Assembly: GCF_015169395.1 (NCBI RefSeq)
Contig: NZ_CP063458.1
Coordinates: forward strand, 1,922,001 to 1,986,000
From: Humisphaera borealis
GTDB taxonomy: Bacteria; Planctomycetota; Phycisphaerae; Tepidisphaerales; Tepidisphaeraceae
Reading direction: 5' to 3'
DNA length: 64,000 bases
The notes below the pieces were generated by a model that ran no database searches, was not told where the DNA came from, and saw nothing but the letters and a program-made list of their open reading frames with translations. Every line of letters begins with the position of its first letter. Position 1 is the stretch's first letter. This document shows, one piece after another, positions 18,123 through 50,642 of the stretch. Position numbers and translations under genes: made by a program.

Positions 18123-18166
18123 ACAATGCCGGTCTAGCCGCTTTCCAGCGGCTAGACCGGCATTGT
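18123..18166. terminator. Perfect 20-bp hairpin after the small unknown gene
   Basis: The arms at 18123-18142 and 18147-18166 are exact inverted copies with a TTCC loop. The hairpin lies 35 bases after the stop codon, and TTTAG follows. It is probably a terminator, with a weak U-tract. Confidence 0.75.
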
Positions 18167-38978: not shown

Positions 38979-39034
38979 TTGTGGTGCGGGCTTTAGCCTG
39001 CATCCGAATGTGCAGGCTAAAGCCCGCACCACAA
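38979..39034. repeat. Perfect 24-bp inverted repeat, REP-like
   Basis: The arms at 38979-39002 and 39011-39034 are exact inverted copies with an eight-base loop. The core GCGGGCTTTAGCCTGC is like known repetitive extragenic palindromes. Both strands read 'MQAKARTT' from it, which explains spurious starts of long frames on either side. Confidence 0.8.
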
Positions 39035-47480: not shown

Positions 47481-47632
47481 GTGGCCGCTGAAGCGGCCGA
47501 AGTCGGGAGTCGGAAGTCGGAAGTCTGAATTGATCGACCCACGGGGTTCTGACTCCCGACTTCCGACTTCAGGCCGCCGACGGCGGCCTTGCCGTTGGAC
47601 TTTCGTGCGGTCACAGGCGAAAGTGTTTCACA
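47481..47632. repeat. Hairpin-rich spacer in the exopolysaccharide locus
   Basis: Three inverted repeats in 106 bases: 47483-47489/47492-47498, a 20-base imperfect pair (47499-47518 with 47551-47570, 18 of 20 matching) built from GTCGGAAGT-type repeats, and 47572-47578/47582-47588. A related GACTCCCGAC run occurs in the 44200-44250 spacer. Confidence 0.6.
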
Positions 47633-49153
47633 GTGAGTAGTCACGCGACGCATATGAGGCTCGTCGATCCCAAACCCGCCGCGCTCCCCGTCCGGGCGGC
47701 CCTCGCCGAGCCGGACCTGGTGCCGGCAGGCCAAGCCCTGCCCGGCAACGCCGCCGGCCGCACCATCTGGGGTTTTGACGCGCTTCAGCTTCATAACCGT
47801 TACTGGGCAAGTTTCGGCGTGCAGGTCGTCCGCCAGGGCGAACCGAGCGAGATCGTCACCCACGCCGAGCTCTACCTCCTCACCGACCCGAACACGCTCA
47901 CGCTTTTCCGCCTGTCCCGGCTGATGGACACCCTGAACTGGGTCGAACCGACAGCGTTGTTCGTCCGGCTGCATGACGCCAATGAGCGCGGCTACCGCGA
48001 GAACACCGTCGTCGATGCCGACGGCAAGTTCGTCCGCTTCCAGCGCGTCTACGCCGCGTCGCGCAGCCAGACGCGCATCGTCCTGACACCCGATCGCGAA
48101 GTAGCCCAGCTCTGGCAGTCGTCGCCCGATCCGCAGACCGCCTGGCGTCGGCTCCGCCGGTTCGCCAAGCGCATCGAGCGGGCCACCTCCAGCATCGACG
48201 GCAACGTCTACGACCGGCACGACGAGCGCGACACCACCTGGTTCGTGCACGACCTCCTTCAGGTCTGGAAACACCCGGATACCACGGTCATGCGTGCCCG
48301 CAAGGTCGAGGTCAGCCGCGGGGCGACCGTCTGGCGCGACGCCCAGTGCAAGGTCGATCCCGGCGCGACATTCATCGGCCCGGTCTGGGTCGGTGCTGGC
48401 CGCATCGTCCCGGCCGGCCAGACCGTGATCGGCCCCGCCGTCGTCTGGGACGACCCCTCGCGCCGCCCGGTCAACGATGTCATCTCCTGGCTGAACATCG
48501 AGCCGCGCGACATCCCCGAAGACCCGCAGGTGCGTGATTCCTCCCTCTTCGGCAAGGCGGTCAAGCGAACGTTCGACATCATCCTGGCCCTGATCGGCAT
48601 GATCTGCTCGGCACCGATATACCCGTTCGTCCTGCTGGCGATCTGGCTCGAAGACGGCCGGCCTTTCTTCTTCGGGCACACCCGTGAGACGCTGCATTCG
48701 CGTGAGTTCAAGTGCTGGAAGTTCCGCTCCATGCGGAAAGACGCCGAGAAGATGAAGGCCGAGCTCAAAGCCAAGAACCAGGCCGACGGTCCGCAGTTCT
48801 TCATGGAGAACGACCCGCGTCTGACCCGCGTCGGGCGGTTCCTCCGCAAGTACAACCTCGACGAGTTCCCGCAGTTCTGGAACGTGCTGGTCGGCGACAT
48901 GAGCTTCGTCGGCCCGCGCCCCAGCCCGCGCGCCGAAAACCAGTACTGCCCCGCGTGGCGCGAAGCCCGCTTGAGCGTCCGCCCCGGCATCACCGGCTTG
49001 TGGCAGGTCAACCGCACCCGCCGCGCCGGAACCGACTTCCAGGAGTGGATCAAGTTCGACATCGAGTACGTCGAACGCCGCAGCTTCTGGCTCGACATCG
49101 TCATCATCTGGAAGACCTTCGCGAACGTGTTCTTCAAGATCAGCCGCAAGTAG
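47633..49153 (+). CDS. Priming sugar-phosphate transferase with a nucleotidyltransferase/helix-like N-terminus
   Basis: A 506-residue membrane protein starting at GTG (an in-frame ATG is at 47654). Residues 310-505 are a bacterial sugar transferase of the WcaJ/PglC class: KRTFDIILALIGMICSAPIY (one span), KCWKFRSMRKDAEKMKAEL, NDPRLTRVGRFLRKYNLDEF, PQFWNVLVGDMSFVGPRPSP, RPGITGLWQVNRTR. It would load the first sugar-phosphate onto undecaprenyl phosphate. The N-terminal 300 residues lack the usual multi-span region. Instead they have a soluble domain ending in hexapeptide-like steps (VSRGATVWRDAQCKVDPGAT, FIGPVWVGAG), much like the tail of the WecG fusion. Confidence 0.9.
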   Translation: MSSHATHMRLVDPKPAALPVRAALAEPDLVPAGQALPGNAAGRTIWGFDALQLHNRYWASFGVQVVRQGEPSEIVTHAELYLLTDPNTLTLFRLSRLMDTLNWVEPTALFVRLHDANERGYRENTVVDADGKFVRFQRVYAASRSQTRIVLTPDREVAQLWQSSPDPQTAWRRLRRFAKRIERATSSIDGNVYDRHDERDTTWFVHDLLQVWKHPDTTVMRARKVEVSRGATVWRDAQCKVDPGATFIGPVWVGAGRIVPAGQTVIGPAVVWDDPSRRPVNDVISWLNIEPRDIPEDPQVRDSSLFGKAVKRTFDIILALIGMICSAPIYPFVLLAIWLEDGRPFFFGHTRETLHSREFKCWKFRSMRKDAEKMKAELKAKNQADGPQFFMENDPRLTRVGRFLRKYNLDEFPQFWNVLVGDMSFVGPRPSPRAENQYCPAWREARLSVRPGITGLWQVNRTRRAGTDFQEWIKFDIEYVERRSFWLDIVIIWKTFANVFFKISRK

Positions 49154-49571
49154 GGGCACACGGCGTGTGCCCGCGGCAGCGCCGTTCGATCACACCAAAT
49201 GAACCCGAGAGCGCAATTGAGCGAGAGAGCGCAATCGAGCGTAAGTGCTCTGTCAAAGCTAGGAACTGCGATTGGGTGCCATGGGCTGGCGTACTCGCCT
49301 GCCCGTGGTTTCGCGCAAGGAATGTCGTACCACGGGCAGCGGAGTACCGCAGCCCATGGCACCCGAACCATCCCAAAAGCAAGGTGTGACAGAGCACTAG
49401 AGCGCAATCGAACGGGACCTAAGCCGGATCGAATGCGACATCACCGGCAGCGTCGTAGGACCTGCTTAGGAACGGTTGAGCGCTCCGCTCCGCGTCGCGG
49501 CTAACCGGGTCTGCACTTTCAACGAAGATCCCCGCGAGAATCCCGCGAGAGAATTTCGCGCGGATCCATGG
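49154..49571. other. Repeat-dense intergenic region
   Basis: 418 bases between the sugar transferase and an unknown gene, holding the 155-bp palindrome and the left arm of the 26-bp inverted repeat. No gene supported. Confidence 0.7.
49209..49411. repeat. 155-bp palindromic element flanked by short direct repeats
   Basis: The palindrome 49244-49398 has three nested arms: 49244-49255/49387-49398, 49274-49288/49350-49364 and 49291-49309 with 49329-49347 (one or two mismatches). The direct repeat GAGCGCAATCGA stands at 49227-49238 and 49400-49411, with a variant at 49209-49220. This is the look of a MITE-like or REP-type mobile repeat inserted into a short tandem array. Confidence 0.7.
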
Positions 49572-49595
49572 TTAGCCGCGACGCGAAGCGGAGCG
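49481..49595. repeat. 26-bp inverted repeat reaching into a coding end
   Basis: The arms at 49481-49506 and 49570-49595 match at 25 of 26 positions. They enclose 63 bases. The right arm contains the stop codon and last codons of the minus-strand gene that ends at 49572, so the repeat has probably changed that gene's C-terminus. Confidence 0.7.
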
Positions 49596-50642
49596 TCCCC
49601 TGCCGTAATGGTCGCACTGAACCGGCGCGACTCGACCGCGCAACCCTTCCGCCGAACGAACCCGAGAACAGACATCCGCCGGCACCAGGTCGTCGGGATG
49701 GAAAGTCGCCGACCCAGTGGTCGGCGCAACGGGACTTACGACGGTCGCCGTCGCCACCCCTTTCGATTCCGCCGAACGAACCCGAGATTCGTCCACGACC
49801 GCCGCCGCTGCTTCGTCGGTTTGGGATGTCGCCGGCGCGGTTGGTGTTGCTGAGACGGGTTCAGTCGCGATCGCCGTCTCCGTCGCCAGCGTCACGCCCG
49901 GCGTCGAATCGCCCAGCAGTTCGGGTGCCCGCGCCGCCGCCCCGCGACTGCCGCCTTGCAGGATGCGCAGTTCGCGCAGCGCCGCCTGCATGGACCGTTC
50001 GACCTGGCACTCATACCGTTGCAGCAGCAGGACGATCCCGCCGTTGACGTCGGCTTGGCGCAGTTCGGACACGATGTCTCCCAACGTATCCATTCCGCCG
50101 AACCCGCCGTCGGCGGCGCATTGCTTGTCGCGCCGCGAGCAGAGCACCGCCGACCGCACGACCGGCATGCGCTGGAGTTTCCAGGCCATCTCGGCGACGC
50201 GCTCGGCGAGCATCGCCTGGCACGGGCCGACGGCGCCCAGGTCATCCCGATACGACGCGACAAACGCATCGAACACGGCAGGATCCTCGTCGGGCAGCAA
50301 CTGGCCGCGGGCACGCAGGCCATGGTTCCACGCATTCTGCGACGCCACGGATTTGCCCGCGTCGGACGTCGGCCCGCACGATTTGGCGCCATTGATGCGC
50401 GACTGCTCGGCGCGGGAGTGGCGCGGTGCTTCAGCGGCACGGCTGTTCACCGACGCCGCCACCGCGCCACCGACGTCAACGCCAACACCTAAATCCGCCG
50501 GCGTATCCGTGACCACGCCATCCGAGGCATTCAATCCCAAATCAACGACCTGCATAGGGACCCCTTTCGCGGCCGAAAAGCCGCTGTGAATGACTGGCAA
50601 TCCGAGGCGCAGTCGCCCGATTTTCAGGTTGACGACGCCCAT
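49572..50642 (-). CDS. Unknown protein of the 'AKS-GP... KHGL' family
   Basis: A 356-residue protein; an alternative start is 50555 (MQVVDLGLNAS), which has a better-placed G-rich site. The core SRINGAKSCGPTSDAGKSVA, SQNAWNHGLRARGQLL, DEDPAVFDAFVASYRDD, CQAMLAERVAEMAWKLQRMP is a conserved pattern seen in many planctomycete proteins of unknown function. The region after residue 240 is low-complexity Ala/Thr/Val-rich. A 21-base direct repeat (49647-49667, 49767-49787) codes SRVRSAE twice. The last residues come from an inverted-repeat arm, so the C-terminus may be recent. Confidence 0.6.
   Translation of the reverse strand: MGVVNLKIGRLRLGLPVIHSGFSAAKGVPMQVVDLGLNASDGVVTDTPADLGVGVDVGGAVAASVNSRAAEAPRHSRAEQSRINGAKSCGPTSDAGKSVASQNAWNHGLRARGQLLPDEDPAVFDAFVASYRDDLGAVGPCQAMLAERVAEMAWKLQRMPVVRSAVLCSRRDKQCAADGGFGGMDTLGDIVSELRQADVNGGIVLLLQRYECQVERSMQAALRELRILQGGSRGAAARAPELLGDSTPGVTLATETAIATEPVSATPTAPATSQTDEAAAAVVDESRVRSAESKGVATATVVSPVAPTTGSATFHPDDLVPADVCSRVRSAEGLRGRVAPVQCDHYGRGRSASRRG

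Follow-up and report, generated by a model that had tools for sequence, protein, structure and literature searches.

The 155-bp palindrome at 49244-49398 of the analysed window (64,000 nt, C1:1922001-1986000 of the Humisphaera borealis genome G000, a single contig of 7,189,892 bases) is probably made up of two nested non-autonomous elements, a REPIN core that would be moved in trans by the RAYT P0001 and an IS630-type MITE shell, the core having been captured by the shell and the two then multiplied together. REPINs and MITEs are known kinds of element; their combination is unusual. 'MITE or REP-type' was the kind of mobile, non-autonomous palindrome suggested in the initial annotation, and on the evidence of the copies and of a RAYT with matching REPs both terms appear to apply, a REP-type core lying within MITE-type arms, for which we infer mobility.

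Architecture of the palindrome and its surroundings

The palindrome was recovered with the three nested levels of arms first attributed to it. The inner arms (49274-49309 and 49329-49364) are 36 nt long and 89% complementary, the outer arms (49244-49260 and 49382-49398) are 17 nt long and 88% complementary, and the innermost level, read from the sequence, is a hairpin within each inner arm, the left one consisting of the head GGGTGC followed by CATGGGCTGGCG/CGCCTGCCCGTG. Coordinates are collected in table 1. In a palindrome scan of the whole window, 49274-49364 was the joint best hit with a score of 24, and the best scores of five windows simulated under an order-1 Markov model were 13-14. With these values and with 41 distinct copies in the genome, the probability of a chance palindrome in GC-rich DNA is negligible.

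Table 1. Positions of the palindrome, its parts and related features (window coordinates unless a contig is named).
Feature	Position	Strand	Remarks
Upstream neighbour gene, bacterial sugar transferase (PF02397)	47633..49153	+	palindrome lies past its stop codon
Tandem-array units, two (18 + 17 bp)	49209..49243	+	left of palindrome; GAGCGCAATTGAGCGAGA 49209-49226, GAGCGCAATCGAGCGTA 49227-49243
Left outer arm, MITE-like terminal inverted repeat	49244..49273	+	GTGCTCTGTCA... from 49245; AA = outer 2 nt
A-family REPIN (91 bp)	49274..49364	.	two head-out REPs + 21-nt spacer
Left REP	49274..49308	+	head GGGTGC + imperfect hairpin; 89% identity to RAYT-adjacent REP
Right REP	49330..49364	-	35 nt identical to the REPs either side of the cognate RAYT
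Right outer arm, MITE-like terminal inverted repeat	49365..49398	-	GTGCTCTGTCACACC inward from 49397; outer TA at 49398-49399
Third tandem-array unit	49400..49417	+	GAGCGCAATCGAACGGGA; right of palindrome
Second REPIN, other family	49481..49595	.	REPs of Y1 gene G000:C1:6662698, 100% and 93% over 27 nt
Third REPIN	38979..39034	.	REPs of Y1 gene G000:C1:4684131, 96% and 100% over 25 nt
Cognate RAYT P0001	G000:C1:1060208-1060789	-	PF01797 match 1060493-1060708; outside window
REPIN-free shells, terminus to terminus			L348 34 bp, L359 39, L351 44, L350 45, L347 47
REPIN-free shells, terminus to terminus			L350, L352 127 bp; L346, L361, L363 267-268 bp

Folded as ssDNA, the 162 nt at 49240-49401 gave -56.9 kcal/mol (z = -11.4), a value equalled by none of 200 shuffled sequences. 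Such a fold, albeit calculated with DNA parameters, and the position after the sugar-transferase gene would suit a long structured RNA, or a double terminator, kept for its RNA fold, which the initial annotation had given as its alternative. This reading drew no support from the remaining data and is very improbable: no Rfam match was obtained in the window at gathering score, the palindrome is nearly strand-symmetric, the flanks of the 41 copies differ, and its two layers may be present or absent and occur apart.

The arms translate, as first noted, to similar peptides on both strands, 'CHGL...' and '...SAARG' recurring in several overlapping ORFs and also at the N-terminus of the RAYT ORF, in what looks like an extension of it. 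For annotation this is a warning that these arms yield repeated false ORFs and false N-terminal extensions.

The palindrome splits an 18-bp tandem array, and the short repeats reported on both of its sides are real. The array 12-mer (≤2 mismatches) was found 15 times across the window against 13.7 expected, which is not above chance, so that only the clustering of the units is notable. They look like an older imperfect array that is now split by the palindrome. A target duplication was considered and rejected for these units, given that the repeats are not exact and are unevenly placed, two to the left of the palindrome and one to the right.

Relatives were searched with 48100-50600 as the query. 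Among 25 other genomes of the family, the matches of 23 fell in the gene for the sugar transferase or in one of its paralogues, with identities of 65-79% among the rows listed, the same-genus genome G001 matched in the palindromic element only, its A-like matches lying on other, small contigs, and G025 gave no match. Among the matches listed for these 25 genomes, none extends from the sugar-transferase gene into the element, and their divergence is too great for an unoccupied site to be aligned to the base.

The REPIN core and its RAYT

The identification of the inner 91 bp as a REPIN with a cognate RAYT is strong. A single copy in the genome had been named at the outset as half of the grounds for giving up a mobile element; BLAST of 49200-49420 against the own genome, in which 40 of 79 candidates were scored, returned at least 82 alignments on the two strands together. 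A search with the arm pattern TGCCATGGGCTGGCGTACTCGC (≤3 mismatches) gave 81 matches in the genome and 0 for the reversed control, part of the 81 being contributed by a sister family, B (TGGCATGGGCAAGCGTACTCGC), with the head GGGTGG. Doublets of the A family were read out as 46 rows, from which four reverse-strand duplicates and one B-type row were dropped to give 41 distinct copies of 89-110 bp. The common A unit starts with GGGTG and finishes with CACCC. By their flanks the copies were assigned, using arm scores and inspection, to F1 (10 copies, the window type, with arms GTGCTCTGTCA...), to F2 (14 copies, GGGTGTAGCGCAG..., some of them weak cases) or to a class without shared arms (17 copies); L007, L016 and L018 have kept a shell arm on one side only.

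A RAYT had also been recommended as a target of search, and P0001 was found, its gene lying between two single A-REPs of the window type that are inverted, head-out and identical over 37 nt. P0001 scored 89.4 bits against NF047646, 'REP-associated tyrosine transposase' (cut-off 80), and 24.6 bits against PF01797 (cut-off 23). Its Y1 domain has the HUH motif and the catalytic Tyr: no variation was seen at HxH (H72, H74) or at Y152, the Tyr within YIHxNP, across 29 aligned sequences including P0001 (alignment A1, from which L116 was omitted owing to an internal stop). The best PDB match for the profile of the aligned RAYTs was TnpA-REP 4er8 (E 1.8e-12). The core therefore has the make-up of a REPIN, with two inverted REPs and a spacer, many copies in the genome and matching REPs beside a RAYT. 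The tag of the GTAG REP superfamily (GTAG/GTRG) is absent from it, and as the tag is GTGC in the window (GTGS in most relatives), the element is not filed under that superfamily. Pfam identifies the neighbours of the P0001 gene as DnaA on one side and Dus on the other (L081 467-3907).

P0001 is one of a set. PF01797 gave 12 Y1 matches in the own genome, 11 of them over the cut-off; 11 of the 12 have inverted flanks scoring 20-41 and the twelfth scores 14, where shuffled sequences reached at most 15 in the 12 tests. Three Y1 genes have the common flank type GGGGACATCA, so that about ten palindrome families are counted. Each of the three strongest palindromes in the window corresponds to the flanks of a different Y1 gene (table 1), and about ten Y1-palindrome pairs thus stand side by side in one genome, three of them visible within 64 kb.

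Several further observations were made on this set and on the palindromes of the window. For the REPIN at 49481-49595, to the right of the array, 129 genome alignments were listed (both strands), with short matches in G016 and G019. A near-perfect 44-bp palindrome lies at 18123-18166, in which none of 12 tested REP strings was reported, and an intergenic palindrome at 47499-47568 is composed of GAAGTCGGAAGTC-like repeats. At G000:C1:3416068 (L075) a Y1 domain lies in frame within a 935-aa DinG-like helicase (Helicase_C_2, DEAD; frame L075:1726-4530, minus strand) and has flanking inverted repeats of its own (score 32), which suggest an inserted RAYT with its REPs. Excerpts of PMC11981726 mention in passing that the DinG of H. 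borealis has an additional domain resembling a transposase, with 4ER8 as the closest match. At G000:C1:930440 (L082) a Y1 domain, which at 20.1 bits is below the cut-off of 23, follows ThiD2 and thiamine monophosphate synthase domains in a single fused frame (L082:947-2728, plus strand, 594 aa).

The 150 genomes searched include 49 with homologues of P0001 (E ≤ 1e-10), the own genome being one of the 49. Thirty homologue loci were fetched, and 27 have flanking inverted repeats scoring ≥16 (largest shuffled value 13), with GTGSC on one strand in 26 of these 27 arms; the inverted flanks of L122, L134 and L136 score below 16. A second set consisted of 80 named loci, mostly from Planctomycetota, with Armatimonadota, Acidobacteriota, Zixibacteria and others, and in places with several loci per genome. 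One locus was excluded for too short a flank. The two sets overlap at one contig at least, L110 and L184 being at the same place on contigs of equal length. Of the 79 loci scored, 62 reach ≥16 (largest shuffled value 13) and 17 have no strong inverted flanks (score <16). GTGSC occurs in 54 of the 62 (52 as read, two on the other strand), some of these arms being doubtful as heads (e.g. L204, L216 and L218, with GTGSC at the inner end), compared with 575 (18.5%) of 3100 length-matched random segments; it is absent from the other eight. At the 53 loci that were long enough, segments 1.6 kb from the gene scored ≥16 in no case, against 44 of 53 near the gene.

Among RAYT homologues, then, the REP head GTGSC is mostly kept and the hairpin behind it varies by locus; several acidobacterial arms are GGGTGCCCCA, and planctomycete arms are often GGGTGSCAY. 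A deep clade with a mostly constant tag and a variable hairpin is a natural data set for the co-evolution of transposase and palindrome. In G001, A-like doublets were found (L094, L098, L100/L101), and a P0001 homologue was not found in its assembly (65% complete), a result that neither supports nor refutes the pairing of REPIN and RAYT.

The outer shell and the assembly of the composite

The F1 and F2 arms were joined without the core and searched against the own genome. Twenty-four of the 26 matches lie at REPIN copies, one of which (L158) has an incomplete REPIN, and the remaining two match F2 only weakly (E 1.7 and 3.1); at the sensitivity of this search no REPIN-free F1 shell was found in the own genome. 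The association would be expected if the whole 155 bp were one enlarged REPIN, with a RAYT that uses the outer arms and moves core and arms together and with no second transposase. The ends of the arms, GTGC in F1 and GGGTG in F2, resemble the REP head GGGTGC, and the cores group by shell type in the tree described below, both of which would suit such an element. Other genomes of the class argue against it, since there termini of the GTGCTCTGTCAC type are multi-copy without a REPIN and have TA outside 22 of 31 ends, and we consider an enlarged REPIN unlikely.

With one mismatch, GTGCTCTGTCA occurs 75 times in the own genome against 51 for the control; this excess is modest, and a longer terminus was therefore adopted. 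With ≤2 mismatches the longer F1 terminus was found in 60 of 150 genomes, mostly one to four times per genome (control 0-3), and it is clearly multiple in G000 (12 against 0 for the control), G061 (19 against 0) and G118 (15 against 1). REPIN-free palindromes of 34-268 bp (table 1) are formed by GTGCTCTGTCAC... termini in G061 and G118 and in other members of their family, which belongs to the class of the window. The two layers are thus separable, 17 of the 41 REPIN copies being classed as without shared outer arms and shells occurring without a REPIN in relatives. The longest shells, L346, L361 and L363 from three genomes of one family, are MITE-like; their ends are of the GTGCTCTGTCACACCT type, and they enclose a GC-rich palindrome.

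The TA found outside 22 of the 31 shell ends in relatives compares with a TA frequency of 0.03 in those loci, and CTA is found outside 18 of the 31. A smaller share of shell ends, 6 of 16, is bordered by TA in the own genome, and one of the two ends of the window copy has AA instead. IS630 reportedly prefers TA within CTAG, to go by the title of one study. The shell has the features of a MITE, with short TIRs, several copies and no transposase gene inside. Beside the REPIN-free shells no transposase was recognised by eye at the 9 of 20 fetched loci for which ORFs were listed. Elements of the IS630 family insert into TA, which is duplicated (excerpts of PMC2170065), and taken together with the TA bias of the ends this makes the shell probably an IS630-type MITE, the transposase of which would belong to the IS630-type family. 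The F2 arm gave six matches in the own genome among the 150 genomes, and one match with three mismatches in each of two others; no relatives are known for the F2 shell, which 14 of the 41 copies carry.

A tree of the 41 cores, of weak support and unsettled bootstrap, was compared with the flank classes. F1 required 3 changes on it (shuffled mean 9.1; none of 500 shuffles as low) and all three groups required 8 (shuffled mean 19.0). Eight F1 cores have nearly one spacer, L016 and L018 make up a second group, and L010, classed as F2, is placed among the F1 cores. The tree is consistent with the core having been captured once or twice and then multiplied along with the shell.

The following course of events is proposed from these comparisons. 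The core, two head-out inverted REPs (GGGTGC and an imperfect hairpin) with a 21-nt spacer, would be mobilized as ssDNA by P0001, an HUH/Y1 enzyme acting in trans. The shell, a MITE with terminal repeats GTGCTCTGTCAC..., would be acted on as dsDNA by an IS630/Tc1-mariner-type transposase with TA targets. A REPIN would have landed in the middle of the MITE once or twice, the composite would have multiplied after this capture, and the tandem array next to the gene for the sugar transferase would have received one copy. The order 'MITE first, REPIN later' rests on the genomes of another family, since a REPIN-free F1 shell was not found in the own genome.

Whether the composite as a whole is a doll-in-doll passenger, movable in trans by both the HUH/Y1 machinery (ssDNA) and the DDE machinery (dsDNA), is a more tentative proposal that we consider rather doubtful; if true, selfish palindromes would gain a second route of spreading. 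A REPIN-in-MITE composite does suggest that two unrelated transposition machineries can share one passenger. The arm of one F1 copy, L031, contains a further composite palindrome, whose REPIN core (GTGTGCCATGCCCACGC) is a different one. Independent composites (F1, F2 and this third one) would mean that the centres of palindromes are preferred landing sites of REPINs.

Comparison with known systems

By title and start of abstract, the open-licence literature on REPIN/RAYT, planctomycete RAYTs and nested MITE/REP elements contained no description of a REPIN-in-MITE composite. The shells resemble the IS630/Tc1-mariner MITEs (ISY100) described in excerpts of PMC2170065 in being short TIR palindromes with TA (22/31) and CTA (18/31) beside their ends, and differ from them in that a REPIN occupies the shell centre in this genome and that no transposase was found at the nine loci examined.

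REP-associated transposases are described in excerpts of PMC8266576 as largely gamma-proteobacterial. The TnpA Y1 subclasses 2.x and class 3 (excerpts of PMC6006769) are like the system found here in their HUH-Y core, REPtron organization and 5' tetranucleotide before the hairpin, and class 3 is noted there in Planctomycetes; the motifs of the P0001 type (EHVH, FWQ and YIHxNP) copy no row in the part of the table that was compared. The TIRtrons and TIRYT genes of PMC3733652 (excerpts) are likewise tyrosine transposases flanked by non-GTAG inverted repeats, with Acidobacteria among the hosts. The same excerpts report 'a plethora' of TIRYT-type genes and repeats in R. baltica and mention odd double palindromes. 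Some TIRYT systems have the motif GGGGWSAS, and neither GTGC nor GGGTG starts a word in the main text of that paper, which gives its TIR sequences in figures.

The closest description of the core is that of REPINs with RAYTs by Bertels and Rainey (2011, PMC3116915, excerpts), which also consist of inverted REPs and a spacer forming a hairpin, have intragenomic copies and belong to a specific RAYT. The size is similar, 71 bp between the first residues of the 16-mers there and 89-110 bp in all here. Our elements differ in the head, GGGTGC (GTGS across relatives) in place of GTAG, and in the phylum of the host, and, unlike those REPINs, 24 of the 41 copies bear one or both of two further types of outer arm.
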